A stretch of 55,638 bases of DNA from Acholeplasmataceae bacterium (GTDB taxonomy: Bacteria; Bacillota_I; Bacilli_A; Acholeplasmatales; Acholeplasmataceae): the NCBI GenBank assembly GCA_016934015.1, contig JAFGTQ010000045.1, forward strand, positions 1 to 55,638, given 5' to 3'. Positions 2,158 to 26,453 of the stretch are shown here, piece by piece. The position numbers and the translations under genes were made by a program. The notes below the pieces were generated by a model. That model was not told the origin of the DNA. It did not search any database and saw only the letters and a program-made list of their open reading frames with translations. Each line of letters begins with the position of its first letter. Within the stretch, counting starts at the first letter, position 1.

Positions 2158-3135
2158 TTGAAACCTACTATCCGTGACGTCGCTAAAAAAGCGAATGTCA
2201 GTGTATCAACAGTATCAAGAGTTGTTAATCAAAAAGGTTACGTCCATGAAGACACAAAAGTTATTGTTAACAGAGTGATCGATGAGCTCGGATTCGCACC
2301 GAATCAACTTGCAAGAAGTTTAACTTCAAGAAGCTCTAAAATCATTGGTGTTATTGTCCCACATATTGGTCCATCTTTTTATGGTGAACTTTTAGAAGGT
2401 ATTGAATCACAAGCATCTGCTTATGGTTATAAAATTATGTTTTGCCATACTCAAGATGATCCAGATCGTGAAATCGAATACTTGCGCTTCTTCGAATCTT
2501 ATAATGTGGAAGGCCTCATCATCGCATCAAACTTCTCAAGTATTGATAAATTATCTGAAATTAACATTCCAATCATCACGGTTGATCACATTTTAAACGA
2601 AAATATTCCATCCATAACCTCTGACAATGTCAAGGGTGGTTCACTTGCAGCCCAAAGACTTTTAGAATGTGGAAGAAAAAACTTGATTTTATTACGTGGT
2701 CCTTCATTCTTAATTACCACCATGGAACGTACGATGGGATTTTTAAATGAAACTAAAAAGAAAAATTTATTTGTTGATATCTATGATTTCGATTTAGTCA
2801 ATCCTGATGTCAAACTCATGGAAGAAATTCTTCTAAAAAATCCTCAAGTCGATGGTATCTTTACATTCTCTGATACCTTAGCTTTTGCAGCCATGAACAT
2901 CTTACAGCGTATGGGTAAAAAAATACCCGACGATGTATCACTCATCGGTTTTGATGATATTCCTTATTCCAATTGGGTTATCCCTTCAATATCAACGATT
3001 CATCAATCGGTGAATCTCATGGGAAAACAAGCTTTCATTAACTTGACGAAATTGATTCGTGGGGTTGAACTTGAAAGTTTACACGATATTATGGATGTCA
3101 GTTTTGTTGAAAGAGAAACAACAAATAAGAAATAA
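2158..3135 (+). CDS. LacI/GalR-family transcriptional regulator, probable MalR-type repressor
   Basis: 325 residues with an N-terminal helix-turn-helix (IRDVAKKANVSVSTVSRVVN), a hinge helix containing NQLARSLTSR, and a periplasmic-binding-protein-like effector domain starting at IIGVIVPHIG. It starts with TTG, eight bases after GGAGG, and follows the neopullulanase stop directly. The recognition helix SVSTVSRVVN is close to that of CcpA, so it should prefer cre-like boxes. Such boxes occur at 300-313, 10745-10758, 19787-19800 and 19831-19844, all before glucan genes. The natural inference is that it controls this island in response to maltose or maltodextrin. CcpA itself is not excluded, but linkage and effector-domain divergence favour a local regulator. 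Confidence 0.88.
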   Translation: MKPTIRDVAKKANVSVSTVSRVVNQKGYVHEDTKVIVNRVIDELGFAPNQLARSLTSRSSKIIGVIVPHIGPSFYGELLEGIESQASAYGYKIMFCHTQDDPDREIEYLRFFESYNVEGLIIASNFSSIDKLSEINIPIITVDHILNENIPSITSDNVKGGSLAAQRLLECGRKNLILLRGPSFLITTMERTMGFLNETKKKNLFVDIYDFDLVNPDVKLMEEILLKNPQVDGIFTFSDTLAFAAMNILQRMGKKIPDDVSLIGFDDIPYSNWVIPSISTIHQSVNLMGKQAFINLTKLIRGVELESLHDIMDVSFVERETTNKK

Positions 3136-12729: not shown

Positions 12730-14115
12730 TTAACCTTTGGTTGCTCCAGCCATAATACCTTCGATTAAGTAACGTTGGAAAACCATATAGAGTGTTGCAA
12801 TTGGTATACCTACGAAGAGTGCGCCAGCAGCAAATGCGGAATAATGTTGATAATTCAAATCGTTAATAAATTTGAATAACCCCACCGCGAGTGTCCATTG
12901 GTTGGTCACATCATAATCAGCAGGTGCCCCTTCTGGATAGAACTGTAAGAGATAACCTGGTAACATATAATCCATCCATGGTCCCATAAACATCGATACT
13001 GCAACGAATGTTAAAATTGGAATCGCAAGTGGTAAAATAATACGAATGAAAATCTGTAATTTATTCGCACCATCAATCATCGCTGATTCATCTAGATCTT
13101 TCGGAATTTGTGTTAAGAAACCCTTAATAAGCCATAAGTTCCCTGGAATAGATCCACCAATATAGAGGATGGATAATGCTGTTGGCTTACCAAGAAGACC
13201 AAACTTCCAGAATAAGACATACATTGCGATAAGTCCCATAAATGATGGGAAGGCTTGTAATACTAAAATTGTCAATAATCCAGCTTTTTTACCTTTAAAT
13301 TGGAATCTTGCAAATACATAAGCAGCACCTGTAATAAGAATAGTACCAACAAACATATTAATTAAAGCAATCTTTAAAGTGTTCCAATACCACTTAAGGT
13401 AATTTGTTTCATTAAATAAGTATTTAAAAGCTTCAAAAGATGGGTTATCTGGCCATAATTGGTTCGGAATATTACTTCTTAAGTTTGCGAATGCCATACC
13501 AAAAATGTAGATCACTGGTACGATGACAATTACCGCGACTAACGTAATTTCCCCGTAAATTAAAGCTCTACCAATAAAGTTTTTAAAACTAAACACATTT
13601 CTCAGTGCCTGTTTAGATACATTCCGGCGTTTTTCCTTACGCATATAATGAATAAATCCATACACTGGAATTAATCCAATCAGTCCTACAGCAATTCCTT
13701 CATATCCTTTTTTACTTGCGTAATCAACCACAGTTCCTTGATGAATTAACCATAATAAAATGATTGAAAATGAAAAGAGTAATGTTTGAAGTAAATTGTT
13801 GTTAAGTGAAATATAAAATAAAACTGAAATTGGAATAACCACGAGATATCCTAATAAAACAATCAATGCATCAAATAATATGCGCTTACTCACAACTTCA
13901 AAACTAAACAAATTCTTCACTTCTGCATCTGTGACACCTGGTGCATGATCTAACTTATTAAAATGTATTAATCCAAAGATTGGGATGAACGCAATCAGTC
14001 TTGCTTTTGTACCTTCAATCCCTTTTTTCTTAGCTACATCATAAGTAATTCCTTGATTCACTACAAGCGCTAAGACAATTACATATGAAATTAAAATCCA
14101 TTGGAATGTTGTCAT
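12730..14115 (-). CDS. malG: Maltodextrin ABC transporter permease MalG with duplicated N-terminal membrane module
   Basis: 461 residues, against roughly 280 for ordinary MalG. Residues from about 185 to the end are a normal MalG-type permease with the EAA loop ESAMIDGANKLQIFIRIILP that contacts the ATPase. The extra N-terminal region contains two copies of a membrane module at a constant spacing of 105 residues: NQGITYDVAKKKGIEG (20-35) matches HQGTVVDYASKKGYEG (125-140), and FSF recurs at 70-72 and 175-177. The function of the module is unknown. The start is three bases after malF, and the Shine-Dalgarno sequence is inside the last malF codons, so the two are coupled. The partner ATPase is not in the window. 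Confidence 0.9.
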   Translation of the reverse strand: MTTFQWILISYVIVLALVVNQGITYDVAKKKGIEGTKARLIAFIPIFGLIHFNKLDHAPGVTDAEVKNLFSFEVVSKRILFDALIVLLGYLVVIPISVLFYISLNNNLLQTLLFSFSIILLWLIHQGTVVDYASKKGYEGIAVGLIGLIPVYGFIHYMRKEKRRNVSKQALRNVFSFKNFIGRALIYGEITLVAVIVIVPVIYIFGMAFANLRSNIPNQLWPDNPSFEAFKYLFNETNYLKWYWNTLKIALINMFVGTILITGAAYVFARFQFKGKKAGLLTILVLQAFPSFMGLIAMYVLFWKFGLLGKPTALSILYIGGSIPGNLWLIKGFLTQIPKDLDESAMIDGANKLQIFIRIILPLAIPILTFVAVSMFMGPWMDYMLPGYLLQFYPEGAPADYDVTNQWTLAVGLFKFINDLNYQHYSAFAAGALFVGIPIATLYMVFQRYLIEGIMAGATKG

Positions 14116-14118
14116 GGC

Positions 14119-16464
14119 TTAGTCCTCCTGGAATGCTCTAGTTCTTGATAAGTTCCAAGCTGTGAGTGACCCCACAAACAAGAAAATCAGAACTGAGAAG
14201 ACGGATGCCATGTTGAAGATTGAATAATCAACCGTCAACTTATACATCCACGAAATTAAGATATCTGTATCTCCAGCAAACCCCCTGCCGGCATTTCCGG
14301 CATTCGGCCCACCACCTGTAATAAAGTAGATGACCCCGAAGTTATTAAAGTTACCTGAGAAAGTCATAATTAAAATTGGTGCTGTCGAATATAAAACCAA
14401 TGGCATTGTAATTTTTGTTATCTTTTGCATACCGGTTGCGCCATCAATATCCGCAGCTTCATACAATGTTGCATCAATCGCTGTCATAATTCCGGTCATA
14501 AGTGCCATAAAGTATGGGAAACCCAACCAAATATTAACAACAACCAATGTTGCTCGAACAAATGTTGAGTTAAATGAATTGCTAAACCATTGAATGTTTT
14601 CTGCACCTAAATAAAATAATCGATCAATGCCTGAAAGTGATGAGAAATCAACACCAAGCATCCCGAGATTATTCAAGATTTCATAAACACCAATATCTTG
14701 TAAAAATGTATTAATAAAGCCGTTTTCATTGAAAATAACTGAGAATACCATTTGTGATAATAAAGCTGGAATTGCCCAAGGTAAAATGAGAATTGTACGC
14801 CACATTTTTCTAAAAACGACACGTTCACTATTTAAGATAAGTGCTTGGATAAATCCACCAAAGAAAACGGTAAATGTTGATAAAACTGCCCATATAACCG
14901 TCCACAACAAGACTCGCCAGAAAGCTTGCCCAAAGGAAGCTCCTAAGCCGGATGTAAAGTTAAAGAGCGCTAAAAAGTTTTTAAATCCTACCCAATCAAA
15001 GGTATTCATCATGGATTCATTCCCTGAAATACTGGTGAATGCAATGACGAAACCAAACGCAATTGGCATAATGGATATGAATGCTAAAACAAAGATAGCT
15101 GGTGATAAAACAATATATTCAAAACCTGATTCATAAACATCTTTGAAGTATTCTTTATCATTCACAACTTCTTGATTTAAACGTTTCTTTTCACTAATTT
15201 TATAGGCATCACGAATACTCCAAAATCCGAAGATAAAGAAGAATAGTGATAAGATAACACCAATTAAACCTTCTAATAGTAACATTGTAGAAACATGTCC
15301 TTGAATTGGAATTGGTTCTAAAATGGTAACTTTACCGATTAAATTAAAAGGAGAACTTTGCGTACCGATCATCGCATCATTTAATGCTGTATGCCCTGTA
15401 AAGTTGACTTTATTTGCAACCCCAAGTGTTCCAACTGCCCAATATCCACGAACAAATAAACCTGCATTATCATAGAAGAAATTATTATAATCTGATCTGA
15501 ATTGATCTTTTAGTTCTGGATTTAAATCGAGATAAACCTTTAACATTAAACGCGTATAATCATTATTATTGTATTCGTTCCATGCATAAGAATATGTATA
15601 AAACATTGCTTGTCTAAAATTGACAAAAAATGGAGTTTCCTTAAATTGTAAGCGTACTGAATTATACATCAATCCAGCTTCATAATATTCAAATACCTGG
15701 TTATCTTTAACATAAATAGGACCTTGAACTGTTACTTTTGTTGGGGATGTAATCGATTCAATTTCCTCAGTTAAAATGTTAATATTGACGTTAATTCCTG
15801 CATCAGAAGCACGAACATAAAAGTTAGAACCACTTTGATAGATTTCACCATTTTTGTTAAATGATGTTAATCCATCGTTTGAAGTTAAAACATTATTTTC
15901 ATTTAAAACGCCTGAGAGCGGTGTTGTTTCAATATATTCTTTTTTATTACTTCCGTCTTCTAATGTGATATTTCTTTCAACATAATACAAGCCTTGGCTA
16001 TCTTTAAATAAATTTTGTTTACGATTGATATGTATGATATTTGACTCATCAAAATCATCTTGTAATATCACTTGATTTGACAATAGATTTGTGTAAGTAA
16101 TTGGATTATTGCCTTTTAGATCTTGTGCTAAGAATGTTACGAATGAAGTTTCAGTCAGTTGATCTGCTCCACCAATCTCTAGCAAATAATCTTCGAACGG
16201 TTGATAACCACCACTACTTAAAGAATTTTCAAAATATTCAGGTAAGAACCCTTCTTGAATCCAATTATCGCCGAAGTTTTTACCAGGTAATTTATCATAA
16301 GCATCTTTTTCAACAAAATAGCTACCTGTCAGTAATTCAATTAAAATAAACCCAACGAAAAAAATAAAAAAGAATAAGGCTTTTAAATATTGCCTATTGA
16401 AAAGTTGACCTAGTCCCCATACTAAGCCAGACAAAATTGCTTTTAAAACACTCATAAACTTCAT
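14119..16464 (-). CDS. malF: Maltodextrin ABC transporter permease MalF with large extracytoplasmic domain
   Basis: 781 residues; E. coli MalF has 514. Residues 1-46 hold an amphipathic segment (WGLGQLFNRQYLKALFFF) and the first membrane helix. About 345 mostly polar residues (47-392) should lie outside the membrane, followed by a second helix at 393-415. The core permease starts near 447 and contains the EAA loop EAADIDGATGMQKITKITMP and FITGGGPN, typical of MalF. The ectodomain contains no motif I recognise. E. coli MalF has a smaller periplasmic P2 loop that contacts MalE, so a substrate- or MalE-docking role is plausible. GGAGGG precedes the ATG. It is cotranscribed with malE and malG. 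Confidence 0.9.
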   Translation of the reverse strand: MKFMSVLKAILSGLVWGLGQLFNRQYLKALFFFIFFVGFILIELLTGSYFVEKDAYDKLPGKNFGDNWIQEGFLPEYFENSLSSGGYQPFEDYLLEIGGADQLTETSFVTFLAQDLKGNNPITYTNLLSNQVILQDDFDESNIIHINRKQNLFKDSQGLYYVERNITLEDGSNKKEYIETTPLSGVLNENNVLTSNDGLTSFNKNGEIYQSGSNFYVRASDAGINVNINILTEEIESITSPTKVTVQGPIYVKDNQVFEYYEAGLMYNSVRLQFKETPFFVNFRQAMFYTYSYAWNEYNNNDYTRLMLKVYLDLNPELKDQFRSDYNNFFYDNAGLFVRGYWAVGTLGVANKVNFTGHTALNDAMIGTQSSPFNLIGKVTILEPIPIQGHVSTMLLLEGLIGVILSLFFFIFGFWSIRDAYKISEKKRLNQEVVNDKEYFKDVYESGFEYIVLSPAIFVLAFISIMPIAFGFVIAFTSISGNESMMNTFDWVGFKNFLALFNFTSGLGASFGQAFWRVLLWTVIWAVLSTFTVFFGGFIQALILNSERVVFRKMWRTILILPWAIPALLSQMVFSVIFNENGFINTFLQDIGVYEILNNLGMLGVDFSSLSGIDRLFYLGAENIQWFSNSFNSTFVRATLVVVNIWLGFPYFMALMTGIMTAIDATLYEAADIDGATGMQKITKITMPLVLYSTAPILIMTFSGNFNNFGVIYFITGGGPNAGNAGRGFAGDTDILISWMYKLTVDYSIFNMASVFSVLIFLFVGSLTAWNLSRTRAFQED

Positions 16465-16553: not shown

Positions 16554-17888
16554 TTAGCTAGCTAAACCAGCTAGAGTACGATAAGATTTTTCTGCGTCTG
16601 CAACAGCAGTAGCAACAGCCTTACCATTATTCCAAACGTCAATAACCATTGTTTCACCTGGTCCCCAATAATAAGTAACTTGAGGAATAACAGGCATTGG
16701 AACTGAAGTTTCTAATTGTTGAGACATTGCTAATAATTTCGCATTGTCACTAACACCTTCGATGTTTGCAAGTAAATCAGCCTTAAGTGCTGGTAACTTC
16801 TTCTTGAATTGATATTGAAGTTCCATTGCTTTATCAGAATTTAAGAATTCAACGAACTTAATCGCATCTTCTTTATTTTCAGAATACTTGTATACAGCAG
16901 CAATAATCGCACCAGCAAATGTTTGTGTAGGTTGACCATTAATCGTTGGCATTTGAGCAACTGCATAGTTTACACCAGCTGCATCATAAGCTTCCATGTT
17001 CCATGGACCAGCAATGATATAAGGAATTTTGCCTTCTTCAAAGTTAGTTCCACCAGTTACTGAGTTATGGTTACCAGTACCAGTAGTTAATGGTTTAAGT
17101 TCTGTAATCATCCAAGTTAATGCGTCAGATGCATTGACATATCCAACAGCAGATGGATCATTTAATTCTGGTCCAAATGGATAGAATCCAAATGCAGAAT
17201 AAATGTGTTGGTTAAAGTAACTGTCTGCCCAATGGCTTGATGTAGCTAGTCCATATAAACCAGCTTCAGCATTAGTACGTCCAGAACCGTCTGCAGCTAA
17301 TTCAGCATTCCATGCAGCAACTTCAGCTAATAAAGCTTCATAAGTTGCAGGTACTGATTCTACTAAATCAGTGTTGTAGTATAAACCAACAGATTCAACA
17401 CTCATTGGAACACCATAAACTCTTTCAACAGCATTTGGAGATGCTGGATCAAATGATTTTGCAATTTCGTCATAAGTCAACGTTGCAATACTCATACCAA
17501 GTTCATGTGCGCGTTCATTTAATAATGTTTGAGTCGCTGCTGGGAGTGGATATACTAAATCTTCTAAAACCGCTTGAGCCATATGGTCATGTGGGAATTG
17601 GAAGACGTCAGCACCATTACCAGAAGGACCGAAAGTCTTTAATAGTTCACGTGAATCCACGGAACCCATATGTTGATGTTCAACAACGATATTTGGGTAT
17701 AATTTATTGAATTCTGCAATAACTGCTTCCATATATTCGCCATTTTCATCATCGATCCAAACACGGATTCTTGATTTTTGAACGAATGTGTCACCAAAGT
17801 CAATAAGTTCACCTTCGTTAGTAGGTCCACATGCAACAAGTGCAAATGCAGTTAGTAGTACAACTAGAACTGTTAATAATTTTTTCAT
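16554..17888 (-). CDS. malE: Maltodextrin-binding lipoprotein (ABC transporter solute-binding protein)
   Basis: 444 residues with a lipoprotein signal ending in LVAC at Cys20, so it is anchored to the outer face of the membrane. The fold is family-1 solute-binding: IRVWIDDENGEYMEAVIAEF at the start, DVFQFPHDHMAQ in the first lobe, PYIIAGPWNMEAYDAAGVNY in the hinge region. These match MalE-type maltodextrin-binding proteins. It delivers dextrins released by the secreted pullulanase and amylase to MalFG. AAGGAGG lies before the ATG. Codon use is regular and the gene is followed by a stable stem-loop, both consistent with high expression. Confidence 0.92.
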   Translation of the reverse strand: MKKLLTVLVVLLTAFALVACGPTNEGELIDFGDTFVQKSRIRVWIDDENGEYMEAVIAEFNKLYPNIVVEHQHMGSVDSRELLKTFGPSGNGADVFQFPHDHMAQAVLEDLVYPLPAATQTLLNERAHELGMSIATLTYDEIAKSFDPASPNAVERVYGVPMSVESVGLYYNTDLVESVPATYEALLAEVAAWNAELAADGSGRTNAEAGLYGLATSSHWADSYFNQHIYSAFGFYPFGPELNDPSAVGYVNASDALTWMITELKPLTTGTGNHNSVTGGTNFEEGKIPYIIAGPWNMEAYDAAGVNYAVAQMPTINGQPTQTFAGAIIAAVYKYSENKEDAIKFVEFLNSDKAMELQYQFKKKLPALKADLLANIEGVSDNAKLLAMSQQLETSVPMPVIPQVTYYWGPGETMVIDVWNNGKAVATAVADAEKSYRTLAGLAS

Positions 17889-17900
17889 GATTGGACCTCC

Positions 17901-19715
17901 TTATTCCTTAACGACGCGGAAGATGAATGTCTCTTGAGTGACATTACCCCACTTGTCGCTAACTTGTAACATAATTGTATAGTCGCCTTCTTCAGCAGTA
18001 TTTAATACCGAGTTTTCACCTTTTGGTACGAATACGAATGAAGTTAAGTCGCCATCACGATCATCAGTTGCTCTAAATCTTGGGAATGAGTTTTGATCAA
18101 ATGGAACTCCCCATGCAACTTCGATAATTCTTTCAGCAGCAGGTTTACCTACGATACCTGTTGGAGAAATAAATTGAATTTCTGGAGCTTCAGTATCCAT
18201 TGCTAAAACGATAGATGCTTTAACATTTAATATTGCTTTACGTTCTGGAGCTGCATATTGTGCTGCTGGAGCTTCAATATCTTTCCAAGCTTCAACTTCA
18301 TCTTCGAGTACGATTGAATCAACATTATTTGGAATCACTAATGGACGATTTGAAGCAATGAATTCATCATTGTCCCATGAACCTCTAGTCCATTTGTATT
18401 CAAATGATGTCCAAGCGTCTTTCACTTCAACATTAAATGTTACGGTATAAACAAGACTAGTTCCAACTTGAGTTGCAGTAAATGCTTCAAGACCTGGAGT
18501 CCAGCCATTGCCTGTAATATTACCAGCAATACTTAATAAAGCACCATCAGGTGTATTTTCTGGAACAGTAACATTAAGAGTTACGGATACTTCTTTTGCA
18601 ACTTCTAATGCTTCTTCTGGTTGATTTAAGTTAAAGAATAATTCATATTCTTTTGTGTTGTCCATTTCATCTTCTAAGATTACAACAAATTGATTTAATG
18701 TTGTATTAGATGATGCAAAGTCAACTCTTTCAATTGCAAGTGGAGCTGTTGTACCAACTTCAACCACTGTGAACCAACTTTCAATCGTTGCTCTTGCTGC
18801 GTCTTTATCATCTGCAGTTGGATATGGAGAAGCTATTGGAGCGCTTGTCTTCACAATAATTGTTTGTGGATCAACCGCATAAGTACCACTCATTGCTACA
18901 GCATCAAATGCCATTAATTTAAATGAGAATGCTTCTTCAGCAAATGCTGCGTAATCGTTATAGAATACGTTATCACCTGCAGTGTACGCATCACCTTTAC
19001 CAACAACGTATGCAATACCTACATCACCAGCAACTGCTGCGCCTGAATCATCAAGCTTAACGTCGCCTGTTTTCTTAGTAGCATCATCGCCAGCATAAAC
19101 TAATAAACCAGCACCTGGAGCATCAGCAGATAACATCAATGCTTTAACATCGATACCAGCAGCTGTTTTACCAGCATTTGACATTGGATATGGATCGCCC
19201 CAACCTGGTGCGATATCAACCCAACCCCATGCATGGACGCCGAGTTTTTCTTCATATGATCCAGTTGAATCAAAATAAACAACAAGCATGTTTAATTTGT
19301 CTGGTTGTGCAATAAAGTGTGCAGGATTATCATCATTGGTTGCTGCGCCTTCAAAGACATAAACGTGAGTTGTTTGACCTTCGATAATTGCACTTGGATC
19401 AATTTTTACGTCACCAGTAAGTTTTGCATCCCAATTTGGGCCTGCGCCACCTGGCCATAAAACGGCAATAAATCCAACTTCTGTTCCTACTGGAATATCA
19501 TTGTATTCCCAGTATGCACCAAAATCATCGAGTCCATCATAAACTTTACCTGCAGCGGGTCCGCCCCAAGCCCATGAACCGAGTTCTGTATAGTCTTCAT
19601 CCCAAGCTTTGAAATGAATAACTAAGTTACCTGTACCTTCTCCTTCTGCAAACGCACGAACTCCGAAAAGACCGAATGCTGCAACAAGTAGAAGAACTAA
19701 TAATACTTTCTTCAT
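17901..19715 (-). CDS. Secreted non-catalytic multi-CBM starch-binding protein
   Basis: 604 residues with a Sec signal peptide cleaved after AFA (about residue 23) and no lipobox. Domains in order: a pullulanase-associated CBM41-like domain (29-135, LVIHFKAWDEDY and WAWGG); a second, more divergent CBM41-like unit (142-290, HAWGWVDIAPGWGDPYP); a pullulanase N2-like beta domain (270-365); a CBM20-like domain (375-475, IAGNITGNGWTPG and FEYKWTRGSWDNDE); and a C-terminal Ig-like domain (508-604, DDRDGDLTSF and VSDKWGN). No GH motif is present. It is the first gene of the malEFG operon, 12 bases before malE, with GGAGG before the ATG. It probably captures starch outside the cell for the transporter or enzymes. 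It has no visible anchor. Confidence 0.82.
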   Translation of the reverse strand: MKKVLLVLLLVAAFGLFGVRAFAEGEGTGNLVIHFKAWDEDYTELGSWAWGGPAAGKVYDGLDDFGAYWEYNDIPVGTEVGFIAVLWPGGAGPNWDAKLTGDVKIDPSAIIEGQTTHVYVFEGAATNDDNPAHFIAQPDKLNMLVVYFDSTGSYEEKLGVHAWGWVDIAPGWGDPYPMSNAGKTAAGIDVKALMLSADAPGAGLLVYAGDDATKKTGDVKLDDSGAAVAGDVGIAYVVGKGDAYTAGDNVFYNDYAAFAEEAFSFKLMAFDAVAMSGTYAVDPQTIIVKTSAPIASPYPTADDKDAARATIESWFTVVEVGTTAPLAIERVDFASSNTTLNQFVVILEDEMDNTKEYELFFNLNQPEEALEVAKEVSVTLNVTVPENTPDGALLSIAGNITGNGWTPGLEAFTATQVGTSLVYTVTFNVEVKDAWTSFEYKWTRGSWDNDEFIASNRPLVIPNNVDSIVLEDEVEAWKDIEAPAAQYAAPERKAILNVKASIVLAMDTEAPEIQFISPTGIVGKPAAERIIEVAWGVPFDQNSFPRFRATDDRDGDLTSFVFVPKGENSVLNTAEEGDYTIMLQVSDKWGNVTQETFIFRVVKE

Positions 19716-19762: not shown

Positions 19763-19792
19763 ATCTTATCATAGATAAATAAAAAATGTAAA
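19763..19792 (-). promoter_or_regulatory. Promoter of the malX-malEFG operon
   Basis: On the minus strand a -35 TTTACA (19787-19792) is followed after 18 bases by -10 TAAGAT (19763-19768) with an upstream TGA extension. The -35 overlaps the operator-like box at 19787-19800, so bound repressor would exclude polymerase. Confidence 0.6.
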
Positions 19793-19800
19793 CGCTTTAG
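19787..19800. promoter_or_regulatory. Operator-like box 1 over the malX -35 element
   Basis: TGTAAACGCTTTAG keeps the AAACGCTTT core of a LacI/cre box but lacks the closing CA. It is placed exactly over the -35 of the binding-protein operon. Confidence 0.5.
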
Positions 19801-19813
19801 TTTTGTAACAGTA

Positions 19814-19827
19814 TGCAACCGTTTTCT
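19814..19827. promoter_or_regulatory. Operator-like box 2 (degenerate) in the divergent region
   Basis: TGCAACCGTTTTCT resembles the MalR/cre family (GCAACCGTTTTC, near-palindromic around CG) with two departures from consensus. Its centre is 27 bases from box 1 and 17 from box 3. Confidence 0.4.
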
Positions 19828-19898: not shown

Positions 19899-22829
19899 AT
19901 GAAAAAAATAATCACATGGGTACTCTTGTTTCTTGTCACACTTGGATTTGGTTTGACAACTTACGCAAGTACACCCCCTACAAATTTAGTGATTCACTAT
20001 TATCGTTATGACGACAATTACGCAAACTTTAACTTTTGGTTATGGCCAAATGCCCCTAAAGATGGGGGTGGTGTTCAATTCGATTTTCCAATTGAAAACA
20101 AAGATGAACACGGTGTATTTTATGAAGTAAATCTTACAGAAAGCTTTGCTAGCTATCCAGAAACCACACGGGTAGGCATCATTATCAAACAAGGTGGTTG
20201 GGATGGTTATCGTGAAGTTGGAGGAGATCGCTTCATTGACTTAACAGATATTGAAGTCATCGATGGGAAAGCTCATGCATATTTTGTTGAAGGTGATTTA
20301 AGAATTGGTACTTCTACTGCTGATTTAGAAAATCACATTCCAGACTATCGAGCAAAAATACTTCGAAGTTACTTCGATGTAAATGGAGAAATTATTACTG
20401 TTGTTTCTGAGATTCCAGAAGCGTTTCAAATTTTTGAAAGTGACGTTGAAATCTACAACGGTATTCCTGAAACGAGAAGTTTCTCCATTGAAGTAGATAA
20501 TCTAGACATTCAAAAAACTTATAAAGTGGTAGCTACTTATCCAGATAATCGCGTCTTAGAAAAAGTAGTTTCATTAGAAAATCTTTATGATACCCCAATG
20601 TTTGAACAAGCATACACTTATGAAGGAACACTTGGAGTATCCTTTGAAAACAATCAAACTGTCTTCAGATTATGGGCACCATTAAGCGAAAAAATCACAC
20701 TAAATCTCTATGAACAAGGACATCCAGATTATAACGCTTTAGGTGAAGCAAATGAAGAAGATACACCTTATGAAACCCATGAATTAACAGCCATTGAAAA
20801 TGGTGCTTGGGAAATCAAAATTGATGGAAATCTACATGGAAAATATTACACATTCAGTGTAACAAATGACGGTACCACTTATGAAGTAACGGATCCTTAC
20901 GCTTATTCTACAGGAGCTAATGGATTACGTGGGATGATTGTTGATTTCAATCTTGTTAACCCGGAAAATTGGACTTATGATGATCGTCCAAATACCATTG
21001 AAAACTTAACAGATTACATCGTATACGAACTCCATGTGAGAGACTTAACAACCCATAGTTCATGGAATGGTAATGAATCTTATCGTGGTCGATTTATGGG
21101 ACTTACTGAAAAAGGCACAACATACTCAAAAAATGGTGTCACAGTTACGACTGGTCTTGATCATATCGTTGAATTAGGTGTTAATGCTGTTCAACTTCTG
21201 CCAATCTTTGACTTTGGTTATGTTGATGAAGTTGAAGCTTATCAAAACCCAAATTATACAAAAATATTCAACTGGGGTTATATGCCTTATCATTTTAATA
21301 CACTTGAAGGATCATATGCGACTAACCCATTTGATGGAACAGTCAGAATCAATGAATTTAAACAAGTGATTCAAGCATTACATAATGAAGATATTCGAGT
21401 GATTATGGACGTTGTCTATAATCATACAGGTGAATCACAAACATCCAATTTCCATAAAATTGTTCCAGGTTATTATCATCGTTTAACGAATGATGGCGGA
21501 TTCTCAAATGGATCTGGTACAGGTAATGAAACCGCATCAGAAAGATCTATGATGCAAAAATTTATGGTAGATTCTGTCTTATTCTTAGCCCAAGAATATA
21601 ATCTTTCCGGTTTTAGATTTGACCTGATGGCACTTCATGATGTTGAAACCATGAATTTAATCAAAGAAAAACTCAATGAAATCGATCCAACCATCGTCGT
21701 TTATGGAGAACCATGGATGGGCGGAACTTCACCCATTAGTTCTTCCATTTCTGCAAACCAACAAAACCTTGATGAGTTAGTTCATGTCGGTGCTTTTAAT
21801 GACCACACAAGAGATGCAGTCAAAGGCTCTGTATGGACAGCAAGTGAAGGCGGATTTGTCCAAGGAAAGGTGAATGCTGGTATTATTCAAAAAGTTAAAT
21901 ATGGGATTGTTGGTGGCATTTCATATCCAGGCATCACTGAAGTTACAACCTTTGCAGAAACTCCAGATCAAACCATCAATTATGTGAGTGCTCATGATAA
22001 CAACACCTTATATGATAAATTAAAATTAACAGGTGTTTCCAACACGTATATTAAAGAAATGCAAGTTCAAGCCAACGCGATTGTTTTAACAGCTCAAGGC
22101 ATACCATTTATTCATGCTGGTGCTGAAATGATGCGTTCTAAACCATTAGCTTCAGGTGGATTTGATCATAATTCCTATGAATCTCCAGATGATGTCAATC
22201 AACTCAGATGGGATCGTAAAGCAGATTATTTAAGTGTTTTTGAATACTATAAAGCTTTAATTCAAATTCGTAAAACTTATGAACACTTTAGAATGACAGA
22301 TGCTAATGAAATCAATTCCAGATTATCATTCTTAGAAACTGATAGTGGTGATCAAGCGATTGCCTTTAAGATAGCTGGTGAAAATGGAAGTCCAGATATG
22401 ATCGTTATTCATAGTGCAAATCCAAAATCAGGATTAACACTTGTTGATCTTGATCCAGGTAAATTCTATCGTATCTTAACAACGGCTGATGGTCCTACAC
22501 TTGAAAATAGTGAAATTGTATCGGGTATCGCTTTCGCATTAAGTCATACGACAACGATTTTAGTTGAACAACAGCTTGCAGTAAGCTTTAATCAAAAAGT
22601 TGTTACAATTCCAGCAAAGAAATCCTATGATGTAAATTCTAATTTTACAACATTAATAGAAGATGCGGTCATCGAATATCAAAGCTTAATGAACACAAAG
22701 GTTCCTGCTCGATACACAATCACTGTGAAAACTACAAAAGATGGAAAAGCCTCGATTGATTTCTTTACTGTTTTAGTTGAAGGACGTCGATACAATGTCA
22801 ACCTTGTTGATAAGACTGGAGGTCGATGA
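19899..22829 (+). CDS. Secreted type I pullulanase with CBM41 (GH13_14)
   Basis: 976 residues. A signal peptide ends near TTYAS; a CBM41-like domain follows (LVIHYYRYDDNYANF), then a pullulanase N2-like beta domain, CBM48 (from about residue 230) and the catalytic barrel (from about 355). Catalytic residues are Asp575 (GFRFDLMAL), Glu604 (YGEPWM) and Asp700 (SAHDNNTL). A roughly 90-residue C-terminal tail after the usual beta domain is not recognised. It debranches starch or pullulan outside the cell. The ATG at 19899 was chosen because GAGGAGGT precedes it; the frame stays open seven codons further. There is no lipobox or sorting signal, so it may be free or held by its CBMs. Confidence 0.92.
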   Translation: MKKIITWVLLFLVTLGFGLTTYASTPPTNLVIHYYRYDDNYANFNFWLWPNAPKDGGGVQFDFPIENKDEHGVFYEVNLTESFASYPETTRVGIIIKQGGWDGYREVGGDRFIDLTDIEVIDGKAHAYFVEGDLRIGTSTADLENHIPDYRAKILRSYFDVNGEIITVVSEIPEAFQIFESDVEIYNGIPETRSFSIEVDNLDIQKTYKVVATYPDNRVLEKVVSLENLYDTPMFEQAYTYEGTLGVSFENNQTVFRLWAPLSEKITLNLYEQGHPDYNALGEANEEDTPYETHELTAIENGAWEIKIDGNLHGKYYTFSVTNDGTTYEVTDPYAYSTGANGLRGMIVDFNLVNPENWTYDDRPNTIENLTDYIVYELHVRDLTTHSSWNGNESYRGRFMGLTEKGTTYSKNGVTVTTGLDHIVELGVNAVQLLPIFDFGYVDEVEAYQNPNYTKIFNWGYMPYHFNTLEGSYATNPFDGTVRINEFKQVIQALHNEDIRVIMDVVYNHTGESQTSNFHKIVPGYYHRLTNDGGFSNGSGTGNETASERSMMQKFMVDSVLFLAQEYNLSGFRFDLMALHDVETMNLIKEKLNEIDPTIVVYGEPWMGGTSPISSSISANQQNLDELVHVGAFNDHTRDAVKGSVWTASEGGFVQGKVNAGIIQKVKYGIVGGISYPGITEVTTFAETPDQTINYVSAHDNNTLYDKLKLTGVSNTYIKEMQVQANAIVLTAQGIPFIHAGAEMMRSKPLASGGFDHNSYESPDDVNQLRWDRKADYLSVFEYYKALIQIRKTYEHFRMTDANEINSRLSFLETDSGDQAIAFKIAGENGSPDMIVIHSANPKSGLTLVDLDPGKFYRILTTADGPTLENSEIVSGIAFALSHTTTILVEQQLAVSFNQKVVTIPAKKSYDVNSNFTTLIEDAVIEYQSLMNTKVPARYTITVKTTKDGKASIDFFTVLVEGRRYNVNLVDKTGGR

Positions 22830-22831
22830 TC

Positions 22832-23230
22832 ATGAGAAAATTATTATTAATCCCACTACTTCTCATCACTTCTTTCATTCTTTTTGGATGTAACAACATC
22901 TATGAAGGAGAACCAACCGATTTAGATATTCTTTTAATGGATGAAATTGTAGCTGAAGGTTCAATTGAAGCGTATATTGTTATTCCAACAACTTTAGAAT
23001 CTGAAGATGAACTTACTGAAATTGCTTATTCCGCAGCAAGTCTCATCTACGAAAGAAATTTCAATGATGTGGGTCAATCTCATGCAGTCTTAACCATTTA
23101 TTTCTATTCAAGTGAAACATCTTTTGATAGTGAACAAAATGACTTTGGTTATTTAATTTACGACATTAACTTGAATGAAGATAGCTTTGGATTGAAGCTT
23201 CAAGAAAATAATCTGATTTTTACAAAATAA
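22832..23230 (+). CDS. Small lipoprotein of unknown function, coupled to the pullulanase gene
   Basis: 132 residues, with a signal peptide ending in FGC at Cys20. I do not recognise a family. The mature part is acidic and apparently beta-rich (AYIVIPTTLESEDEL, then AVLTIYFYSS). The ATG at 22832 lies eight bases after GGAGGT; an ATG six bases earlier overlaps the pullulanase stop but is too close to the Shine-Dalgarno. The tight link to the secreted pullulanase suggests a membrane-anchored accessory to it, but nothing in the sequence proves this. Confidence 0.75.
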   Translation: MRKLLLIPLLLITSFILFGCNNIYEGEPTDLDILLMDEIVAEGSIEAYIVIPTTLESEDELTEIAYSAASLIYERNFNDVGQSHAVLTIYFYSSETSFDSEQNDFGYLIYDINLNEDSFGLKLQENNLIFTK

Positions 23231-23234
23231 AAAA

Positions 23235-23281
23235 GGTGCAAACGCACCCTTGAGGAATTCCAAATTGGGATTCCTTTTTTT
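23235..23281 (+). terminator. Terminator after the pullulanase-lipoprotein operon
   Basis: Two consecutive stems: GGTGC/GCACC at 23235-23248, then AGGAATTCC/GGGATTCCT with one G-T pair at 23253-23275, followed by T7. The second is the probable terminator. It ends where the convergent minus-strand gene stops. Confidence 0.75.
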
Positions 23282-24089
23282 ATGCAAAATACTTCTTTCC
23301 ATAAAACAACATGACAAGCATCGCAATAATCCCCATCGAAAATTGGAATAACACAGCGCCAAATGCTGGTTCAATCATCCCAACAATAAATCCAATGATG
23401 GATGGAACACCCATTAAAAAGACAAGAAATTTGATGGATTGTACGTAATTCATGAATTTGGAATAACCAAATCGAAATAACTGTAAAATTAAACCTAATA
23501 AAACAAGATAAAGGACATAGATACCAAGCGTAGTTACTGTATTGACCAATACAGAATATAGAACAATATAGTTACCAAAACTAGCTTCAATTTGTGCACC
23601 AAACTCTTGATACGCTACTGCTTTTTCTTCACCTTGCATTAAATTTAGTTCTCTGAATAATAAAACATCCGTAAAACCTTGGTAATTACTTCCGGTCATA
23701 AAATTGCCTTCAGCATTTTGATAAACTATTTTATTCTCGTAAAATAGAATTGTTTTTTCATTTTCTATTTCACGTCCCTCTTGAGCATTAAACACAAAGG
23801 TAATGTCTCGATGAGATAAAACCGTTTCGGTGTCTGAATCACAATTAAATGTGCCACCAATTATCGAACAGTTATCGGGAAGTTCCCAAGTTGGAGTCTC
23901 AGCCATAAAACTTTCTTCAATAAAATCTAATCGCCAGCCTTGTTCAGAAATAATTTTATAATTAGAGGGAAATATCGCAATAAAACTTAAAATTAGAAAA
24001 TAGATGATGACTTTCCATGATTTTTCATTGACATAGTTAAATATGTTTTTGAAATCAAGAGAATATTTTAAATACTTCGCTAAAAACAT
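23280..24089 (-). CDS. DUF1189-like membrane protein
   Basis: 269 residues: an N-terminal cytoplasmic amphipathic stretch (YLKYSLDFKNIFNYV), one membrane helix near 27-44, an extracytoplasmic region of about 130 residues, then three to four helices at the C-terminus. This layout and LIEPAFG-like C-terminal packing fit DUF1189 proteins, which often lie beside maltodextrin genes in Firmicutes; their role is unknown. It overlaps the amylase stop by one base (TAATG), so translation is coupled. The amylase linkage suggests a part in glucan uptake or secretion. Family assignment is by layout and context, not by a strong motif. Confidence 0.6.
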   Translation of the reverse strand: MFLAKYLKYSLDFKNIFNYVNEKSWKVIIYFLILSFIAIFPSNYKIISEQGWRLDFIEESFMAETPTWELPDNCSIIGGTFNCDSDTETVLSHRDITFVFNAQEGREIENEKTILFYENKIVYQNAEGNFMTGSNYQGFTDVLLFRELNLMQGEEKAVAYQEFGAQIEASFGNYIVLYSVLVNTVTTLGIYVLYLVLLGLILQLFRFGYSKFMNYVQSIKFLVFLMGVPSIIGFIVGMIEPAFGAVLFQFSMGIIAMLVMLFYGKKYFA

Positions 24090-25603
24090 TAGGCATATAC
24101 CTCAATGTCTTCATAGTCTATTTCAATGATGATTGTCGCGAATGCTTCCATTTCTTTTGATCCAAAAATCACATTGCCAAAATCAATATCAAGTGTATAA
24201 GTATCCGATGATAAATTATGGATGACAATCACAGCTTGTTTAACATTCTCATCTTGATAGCTTCGGATATAGCCTTGAATCTGACCATTATTATCACCAT
24301 ATGGTAAAAAGTCATTGCCAAACATTAATGCTGGATTATCTTTTCTGAGTGCAATTATTTCTTTATAAGCCATGAAGAGCGATGTTTCATCTAATTTCTG
24401 GTCAGCTGAAGTAGGTGTTTCTAGATTCATCAAATCTGGAAACCATGTCGTATTTTTAGAATCATCACCCCATAAAAAAGGTGTTCTTCTAAATTCATCA
24501 TAAGCGATGCCATAACCAGGAATAATCTGACCATCTTGACTATAATCTCGATATCCCTTCATGCCAAGTTCTTCACCGTAATAAATAAATGGAGTCCCTG
24601 GCAATGTTAAAAGTATACGAGCAGCTAAAGCTAATTTTTCTGGTTCATTCATGAATCCAGGAGTGGATGCCAAACGATCTAAATCATGATTGGTTAGAAA
24701 TGGTGAATCAATGAAATCAGGATTTATATCTCGATATGTTTCATACACTTTATGAAGATTTGATACAAACAAGTAACGACTGTTTAACTTCCCAACTTTG
24801 TCCCAAATTTGTTGAGCAGCATAAAAGTTAAATGCGGAATCTGATCCAATAAAATAATCAGCAACCATTGGATAAAAATATTCAAACACTTCAGAAACAA
24901 TAAAACTATCTGGATAATTTTCTTTAATATGTTGATTTAATTCTAAAAGTAAAAATGTGTTATCAAAGGTTGGATTAGTACTCTCAATTAAGTGTTTCGC
25001 AGCATCAATACGAAAGCCATGAACACCTTTTTCCAAATAGAAATCCATGATTGATTCGACCTCATCAATAACATCTTGATTTTCAAAGTTCAAATCTTTC
25101 ATGCCACCTACAAAGGATTCATAAGCGTTCCCATTTTGCCAAACATAATAATCATGATAAGTAGCACTTGTCGAAGATTGTGCATCTATGTACCATGGAT
25201 GTTGATCCGAGGTATGATTAATGACTAAATCCATCACAATTTTGATGCCTTCATCATTAGCAGCATCTAATAATCTTTCAAAATCATCCATCGTTCCATA
25301 TTCCGGATGAATATCAAGATAATCCATGACATCGTATCCATGATAAGAAGGTGATGGATGAATCGGTAATAACCATAATGCAGTCACACCTAAATCGCTT
25401 AAATAATCAAGGTTTTCAGTAATGCCATTTAAGTCACCAATACCATCATCATTGCTATCGGCAAATGATCTCACAAAAATTTGATAATAAATATCGTGTT
25501 GAGGGTTTGTCTTTTTTAATTGTTCATAACTATCTTTTGGACTACAGCTTGATAGAAAAACAATCAATCCAATCGATAATATGATATGTAATAATTTTTT
25601 CAA
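24089..25603 (-). CDS. Surface alpha-amylase lipoprotein (GH13)
   Basis: 504 residues with a lipoprotein signal ending LSSC at Cys20, then a GH13 barrel. Motifs are [28 protein letters not shown], nucleophile Asp200 in GFRIDAAKH, acid/base Glu238 in VSEVFE and Asp307 in LTNHDLDRL. The triad is intact. It is probably an outer-face alpha-amylase or maltogenic-type hydrolase that trims starch to dextrins for MalE. The TTG start follows the RDD-gene stop with no gap, and AAGGG lies in the end of that gene. A second-half loop with GYRDYSQDGQIIPGYGI is typical of oligosaccharide-acting GH13 enzymes. Confidence 0.9.
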   Translation of the reverse strand: MKKLLHIILSIGLIVFLSSCSPKDSYEQLKKTNPQHDIYYQIFVRSFADSNDDGIGDLNGITENLDYLSDLGVTALWLLPIHPSPSYHGYDVMDYLDIHPEYGTMDDFERLLDAANDEGIKIVMDLVINHTSDQHPWYIDAQSSTSATYHDYYVWQNGNAYESFVGGMKDLNFENQDVIDEVESIMDFYLEKGVHGFRIDAAKHLIESTNPTFDNTFLLLELNQHIKENYPDSFIVSEVFEYFYPMVADYFIGSDSAFNFYAAQQIWDKVGKLNSRYLFVSNLHKVYETYRDINPDFIDSPFLTNHDLDRLASTPGFMNEPEKLALAARILLTLPGTPFIYYGEELGMKGYRDYSQDGQIIPGYGIAYDEFRRTPFLWGDDSKNTTWFPDLMNLETPTSADQKLDETSLFMAYKEIIALRKDNPALMFGNDFLPYGDNNGQIQGYIRSYQDENVKQAVIVIHNLSSDTYTLDIDFGNVIFGSKEMEAFATIIIEIDYEDIEVYA

Positions 25604-26056
25604 TTATAAGCCCTTCTTTCGCATGGATTCTGTCTTGTTCATAAAATTCATTTTACCCACAGGTTTTTCTAAATCGATGACTTTTGTTTTAAAAATATAA
25701 TCATGGATGGTTCTCGATGTTTTTTCGTTAATAAAAAAGAATGCAATGATTAAATAAAGACCAAATGTCATGAAGCTGAGTGCTAAACGAAAGACATCTC
25801 TTAAAATAATTCGCCATAATTTTAAATCATTACCATCGAGATCGACTGTTTTAATCTTTTGGATTCTTTTCCCAAAGGTTTGACCTCTTGAAAAAAAGTG
25901 TGGTAACACATAAAAAACAAATGCAGCTGTTACTGAAATAATATAAGGAATCGCACGTATTTCTGTTCCTGTAAATAGTGATAATATAACAAAAATCATG
26001 ACACCTGATGTGTCAATCGCGAACGCTCGAACACGTTTCTCAAATGAAGGAACCAT
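25604..26056 (-). CDS. RDD-family membrane protein
   Basis: 150 residues with three hydrophobic segments and the RDD-family pattern: an N-terminal KRVRAFAIDTSGV, the central FGKRIQKIKTVDLDG and a conserved RDVFRL in the next helix region. RDD proteins are small membrane proteins, some implicated in ion exchange; function here is unknown. The ATG at 26056 is well spaced from GAGGTG; the frame opens three codons earlier at a GTG that lies in the Shine-Dalgarno itself. It heads the RDD-amylase-DUF1189 operon. Confidence 0.8.
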   Translation of the reverse strand: MVPSFEKRVRAFAIDTSGVMIFVILSLFTGTEIRAIPYIISVTAAFVFYVLPHFFSRGQTFGKRIQKIKTVDLDGNDLKLWRIILRDVFRLALSFMTFGLYLIIAFFFINEKTSRTIHDYIFKTKVIDLEKPVGKMNFMNKTESMRKKGL

Positions 26057-26084
26057 AGTCAACACCTCTTCTTCGTCTAAAATT

Positions 26085-26135: not shown

Positions 26136-26453
26136 TTACTCAATTACCATAATCATACAGGAAGATGCACCTGTATTACCAGCTTTATCAGTCACTGTAT
26201 AAATAATCCGATAGATTCCCGGATTTTCTAAGTCTACCTCAGATAAATCAACTTCAATTAAATCTGTGATATCTCCATCATAGTTATCTAAAGCAGTCAA
26301 ACCATTCAAATAATTGGGTTCAGGATCACCCATAAAATAGGTGATATCTTTAGCACCTGAAATATGTGGTGGTACAACATCTGGTTCTTTTTGACATCCC
26401 ATCAGCGAAAGAACCGTTAAAATCAATACGAATATGAATAAAAATCTTTTCAT
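26136..26453 (-). CDS. Small lipoprotein with one Ig-like (DUF5011-type) domain
   Basis: 105 residues, with a lipobox LMGC at Cys20 and then a single Ig-like domain of about 75 residues. The diagnostic pattern is DNYDGDITDLIEV followed by GIYRIIYTVTDKAGNTG, the same pattern as in the C-terminal domain of the secreted CBM protein (DDRDGDLTSF, GDYTIMLQVSDKWGN). DUF5011-type domains normally occur as repeats in large surface proteins, so a one-domain lipoprotein is unusual. It has its own terminator. It might dock other surface proteins; that is speculation. Confidence 0.8.
   Translation of the reverse strand: MKRFLFIFVLILTVLSLMGCQKEPDVVPPHISGAKDITYFMGDPEPNYLNGLTALDNYDGDITDLIEVDLSEVDLENPGIYRIIYTVTDKAGNTGASSCMIMVIE

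Follow-up and report, generated by a model that had tools for sequence, protein, structure and literature searches.

A conserved family of predicted enzyme-free alpha-glucan-binding proteins encoded with the maltodextrin importer of wall-less Acholeplasmataceae

How are secreted glucan-binding proteins retained on the surface of a cell that has no wall, no sortase and no outer membrane? The question is raised by one gene of the 55,638-nucleotide stretch of Acholeplasmataceae DNA analysed here (hereafter the window). The gene, called SCAF, is located at 17901..19715 on the minus strand and encodes a predicted secreted, enzyme-free alpha-glucan-binding protein of 604 amino acids. It is the first gene of an operon and is separated by 12 bp from a gene for a MalE-type maltodextrin-binding lipoprotein with lipobox LVAC (16554..17888, minus strand), followed by the genes of a long-form MalF-type permease of 781 amino acids (14119..16464, minus strand) and of a MalG-type permease of 461 amino acids with an N-terminal extension (12730..14115, minus strand). 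A preliminary description had reported this order of SCAF, malE, malF and malG, which is correct, and had listed in SCAF a signal peptide, two CBM41 units, a CBM20-like unit and an Ig-like unit without any glycoside hydrolase motif. Pfam searches, the alignment of relatives and the AlphaFold2 model compared with Foldseek agree with that list.

The modules of SCAF were delineated as follows, all coordinates being on the minus strand. The signal peptide (residues 1-23, 19647..19715) shows, in the sequence and in the family alignment, a small-x-small cleavage motif and no lipobox cysteine. The Pfam PUD/CBM41 profile (PF03714) matched SCAF with an E-value of 2.5e-11 and 44.7 bits, for a curated cut-off of 25, and at a looser cut-off it covered two stretches, the best one being 31-125. 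CBM41 module 1 (residues 28-128, 19332..19634) is supported by this profile, by conservation and by the fold, and CBM41 module 2 (about residues 140-255, 18951..19298) by the alignment of relatives, by conservation and by the AlphaFold2 model. A beta module without Pfam family, module X (residues 262-370, 18606..18932), was delineated from the Pfam scan and the model, and may act as a spacer. It is followed by the CBM20-like module (residues 375-490, 18246..18593), tentatively assigned from the alignment of relatives and the fold search, and by the C-terminal Ig-like domain (residues 501-604, 17904..18215), assigned by alignment and proposed below as a docking domain; a Pfam bacterial Ig-like match to residues 545-596 had an E-value of 0.0018, under the curated cut-off. 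The AlphaFold2 model, built from 35 sequences, reached a mean pLDDT of 89 and shows, for the most part, beta domains arranged one after another; module X and the Ig domain are confidently modelled as small beta domains, each with roughly 100 residues. Its best Foldseek matches in the PDB were SpuA and isolated and tandem CBM41s (2j43, 2j71, 2ya1); the CBM20-bearing glucoamylases 2vn4 and 6fhv and the CGTase 1cgt came lower in the ranking, as matches to the whole model given without query positions. A sequence search of the whole protein against the PDB returned only noise. No glycoside hydrolase or other catalytic domain was detected in SCAF by Pfam, an NCBIfam scan gave no match at all, and Pfam scans found no dockerin in SCAF or in its family members.

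A CBM41 profile match at E<=0.01 was obtained for 33 of the 35 SCAF family members. In the family alignment, W50, W95 and K98 of module 1 are near-invariant and position 102 is D in 31 of 36 sequences; in module 2 the near-invariant residues are H161, W163, K214 and D218. We take these conserved W, K and D positions to be the ligand-contact positions of family 41. Judged by profile, fold and ligand-type residues, SCAF is a genuine CBM41 carrier. Its N-terminus is 38% identical to that of the neighbouring pullulanase, and the earlier statement that SCAF consists of pullulanase parts is correct as regards its two CBM41s; it does not apply to the CBM20-like and Ig modules. The CBM20-like module is optional, being present in the long form and missing from the short form (about 485 amino acids), and it occupies three different positions across the family: it sits within module X in A. 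granularum and at the N-terminus in another genome (G155). These differing positions suggest that it was inserted more than once. The CBM_20 profile (PF00686) did not match the protein of the window, and the modules of two relatives reached 18.9 and 21.5 bits for a cut-off of 23.3, with a best E-value of 2e-4.

A match to SCAF was found in 42 of 101 genomes; in a few of these the match is limited to the CBM41 of the pullulanase, to a CBM20-like module or to an Ig domain. Nearly every named match in GTDB genomes belongs to Acholeplasmataceae/Acholeplasmatales or to Tenericutes/Bacillota MAGs; the matches include Acholeplasma laidlawii, oculi, granularum and equifetale, Haploplasma modicum, Peloplasma aerotolerans and many MAGs. 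Surveying the gene neighbourhoods, we found malE directly after the SCAF gene in 36 of 37 core loci, the exception (L063, genome G006) having no malE within the 1.1 kb left on the contig. The core loci usually also contain malF and malG, together with an extracellular pullulanase gene in divergent orientation. When the class was searched with a profile, remoter relatives turned up in other families, some of them carrying four CBM41s, and malE was again the next gene in 20 out of 20 distant operons, across several families. For a few short homologues of one family (f12), malE does not adjoin in the available sequence. The SCAF gene was missing from the short-MalF operons examined. Four long-MalF genomes apparently lacking SCAF (G055, G072, G074 and G086) were rejected as exceptions, the locus being cut by a contig break in two of them, and a divergent copy occupying the position where SCAF is expected in the other two. 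At this level of sequence and gene-order conservation, SCAF is a conserved family.

Three peculiarities of individual loci were also recorded. MalG reaches 948-949 amino acids in L062 and L065. In L048 (G032), malE is found as two ORF pieces, perhaps owing to a frameshift or an assembly error. L107 (G074) and L108 (G072) carry at the same position a divergent, TM-anchored version of the genes in a genus otherwise having the tail-less operon, which is probably a case of wholesale operon replacement.

On the other side of SCAF, a divergent gene encodes an extracellular type I pullulanase (PulA) with a CBM41-CBM48-GH13 organisation, an Ig-like domain at its C-terminus and no TM tail (19899..22829, plus strand; the mechanical ORF starts at TTG 19878, the ATG at 19899 being the likely start). 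Two LacI-type operator-like sites lie in the intergenic region, TGTAAACGCTTT (19787..19798, plus strand), which overlaps a promoter-like site of the SCAF gene, and TGCAACCGTTTT (19814..19825, plus strand), at 27 bp from the first. In the corresponding intergenic regions of relatives, AANCGNTT cores were counted at 10.3 per kb, compared with about 0.2-1.3 per kb when whole loci are considered, and were mostly paired, about 28 bp apart. Since these pairs are placed between the pullulanase and the importer operon, both are probably co-regulated, perhaps by the LacI-family candidate encoded at 2158..3135 (plus strand), whose N-terminus looks LacI-type.

What does such a protein do at the head of an importer operon? 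We consider it likely that, within a pullulanase-MalEFG system, SCAF is the subunit that captures alpha-glucans at the surface, that is, the secreted, enzyme-free front end of maltodextrin uptake. Its modules would retain starch, glycogen or glucans of the pullulan type at the wall-less cell's membrane, the neighbouring pullulanase and a lipoprotein amylase would cut the held glucan, and MalE would gather the products locally. The earlier proposal of a dedicated enzyme-free capture protein is well supported as a prediction by the operon conservation, the CBM41 residues, the operators shared with the pullulanase and the lack of a catalytic domain. The accompanying label of scaffold finds no support, as SCAF showed neither a cohesin nor a dockerin, nor any other module with a proven role in assembly. 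Module X (262-370), the lack of any anchor and the divergent extracellular pullulanase with its own CBM41 had been missed.

The means of retention were analyzed at both ends of the protein. No lipobox cysteine occurs in the signal region of the SCAF proteins in the family alignment, and most of their signal peptides end with the small-x-small motif. As 29 of 31 genomes have a member of the signal peptidase I family, mature SCAF should carry no N-terminal anchor. At the C-terminus, all 20 distant operon relatives exhibit a hydrophobic helix followed by a basic tail (TM tail), which would keep them at the cell; none of the 37 core SCAF proteins does, their sequence stopping right after the Ig-like domain. 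A sortase was found in 0 of 15 genomes tested, and the penicillin-binding transpeptidase was missing in 13 of the same number tested. The cleavage site, the signal peptidase and the absence of lipobox, TM tail and sortase would suit a protein that is freely released, coating glucan or bridging soluble glucan to secreted pullulanase in the manner of Actinoplanes Cgt. We nevertheless regard free release as unlikely, considering that the distant relatives encoded at the equivalent position are all TM-tailed, that the product would be lost to a wall-less cell, that SCAF is strictly linked to the importer, and that the constraint on the Ig domain is raised after tail loss. The main texts of the Acholeplasma vesicle proteome papers name no SCAF-like protein.

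Alternatively, the signal peptide could stay uncleaved and form an N-terminal membrane anchor, leaving the Ig domain membrane-distal and without a dock. Complete SCAF copies do have a hydrophobic N-terminal segment, and no other anchor was found; yet the small-x-small motif is conserved ahead of the mature start, signal peptidase I is nearly ubiquitous in the genomes inspected, and the anchored relatives place the membrane at the C-terminus, which makes this arrangement quite improbable.

The Ig-like domain is the most conserved large module of SCAF, with a mean identity of 63% versus 49-50% for the CBM41s in the tail-less group. Relative to the CBM41s, the Ig domain changes more slowly in the tail-less group (log ratio of about 0.59-0.71 for the three larger bins) than in the anchored proteins (0.82-0.97), in a comparison where pairs are non-independent and where one small tail-less bin (12 pairs, close relatives) gave 0.83. 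This constraint would fit, rather than prove, a docking role gained upon anchor loss. In the Acholeplasma lineage, the TM tail would have been lost, and SCAF would now probably be held through docking of the constrained Ig-like domain to a protein in the membrane, for which the MalE/MalFG complex or a surface lipoprotein is the likeliest candidate. Mirror-tree partial correlations with the SCAF Ig domain were 0.33 for the MalF ectodomain, which is fast-evolving (41% mean identity), and 0.17 for MalE; these weak and indecisive values name no partner.

A comparable arrangement was detected for the pullulanase. The extracellular pullulanases at these loci end either with a TM tail or with an Ig-like domain, and the latter is related to the SCAF Ig domain with an hhalign probability of 91.5. 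In the window, a small lipoprotein gene is located directly 3' of the pullulanase (22832..23230, plus strand). Such genes (111-191 amino acids) lie within a few bases after 29 of 29 Ig-tailed pullulanases and after 0 of 22 TM-tailed ones, and the lipoprotein profile gave strong matches solely at the pullulanase locus, the many weak ones corresponding to the signal region. The lipoprotein of the window belongs to no Pfam family and has a confident fold model without significant PDB match. Three changes of tail type are needed on the pullulanase tree, including two apparent reversions in the core clade (G010 and G011), and in both of these genomes the pullulanase is TM-tailed, the lipoprotein is missing from the locus and SCAF is tail-less. 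The simplest reading is that the enzyme Ig domain and the lipoprotein would form a two-part pullulanase anchor, the lipoprotein being a candidate membrane receptor and the two together a concrete case of a possible new docking pair. The same lipoprotein was also considered as the anchor of SCAF, which is unsupported: because SCAF is tail-less in G010 and G011 where the lipoprotein is missing from the locus, SCAF appears independent of it.

Further lipoproteins were observed nearby. A neighbour cassette kept in most relatives (23280-26065, minus strand) encodes the lipoprotein amylase, a DUF1189 protein and a small RDD-like membrane protein. Close to the amylase, a 105-amino-acid lipoprotein with a single bacterial surface Ig-like domain (26136-26453, minus strand) is a possible further docking partner. 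Elsewhere, genome G028 encodes a 1600-amino-acid lipoprotein (L111:9854-14656) with repeated atrophied Ig domains, at least 3 CBM20 modules, an esterase domain and FIVAR.

Extending docking to both proteins, we tentatively propose, as a possibility that we hold at somewhat less than even chances, that wall-less bacteria swapped TM tails for docking. The C-terminal Ig domains of SCAF and of the pullulanase would plug onto membrane partners, the lipoprotein at 22832-23230 for the pullulanase and MalE/MalF or another lipoprotein for SCAF, and would form a surface complex resembling Sus or the amylosome in which cohesin, dockerin, sortase and outer membrane play no part.

SCAF might instead be mainly an adhesin, or a binder of the cell's own alpha-glucosyl lipids or of host glycogen, with a secondary role in uptake. 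Alpha-glucan binding is general among CBM41s, and several core members are Acholeplasma species that we take to be animal-associated; the near-invariable linkage to the importer, and usually to the pullulanase too, is however also observed in many environmental genomes, so that this role is very improbable. A cryptic enzyme in module X, which has no Pfam family, or in the Ig domain is scarcely credible and was rejected, both being small beta domains in a confident model and neither Pfam, NCBIfam nor the AlphaFold2 model revealing a catalytic family.

The literature searched contains no description of SCAF proteins, in Acholeplasma or elsewhere; a Tenericutes phylogenomics paper mentions only the pullulanase gene and glg genes (PMC7301438). 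Several known systems can nonetheless be compared with SCAF as a surface capture protein. The CBM41s of streptococcal SpuA and of Thermotoga maritima PulA share with those of SCAF the fold and the ligand-type residues, the tandem being as in SpuA; they are attached to a GH13 pullulanase, whereas the SCAF CBM41s stand alone beside one. Cgt of Actinoplanes is a secreted single CBM20 domain that binds starch (PMC7275007); like the predicted SCAF product it is secreted and enzyme-free, with an unrelated architecture. Sas20 and Sas6 of the Ruminococcus bromii amylosome are non-enzymatic surface starch-binding proteins (PMC9112005, PMC10826348) of a host of Gram-positive lineage, as SCAF is predicted to be an enzyme-free starch binder. 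Sas20 is held on a scaffoldin by a dockerin-cohesin pair, whereas no dockerin or scaffoldin was found for SCAF, whose host cells mostly lack wall-synthesis transpeptidases. Finally, the preliminary description had likened SCAF to SusE/SusF, the outer-membrane starch-binding lipoproteins of Bacteroides. The likeness stands as a functional analogy, both being non-enzymatic multi-module alpha-glucan binders (predicted for SCAF) encoded with a starch uptake system. It does not extend to a lipobox, an outer membrane, SusCD or a sequence relationship (a profile of module 3 matched SusF at chance level, E=0.32), SCAF having CBM41 and CBM20-like modules and malEFG instead of susCD as partner operon. 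The best reading is that SCAF would be analogous, not homologous, to SusE/F or Sas20. The idea of dedicated enzyme-free starch-binding proteins, which comes from Bacteroidota and R. bromii, would thereby also apply to wall-less bacteria, where they are genetically tied to an ABC importer.
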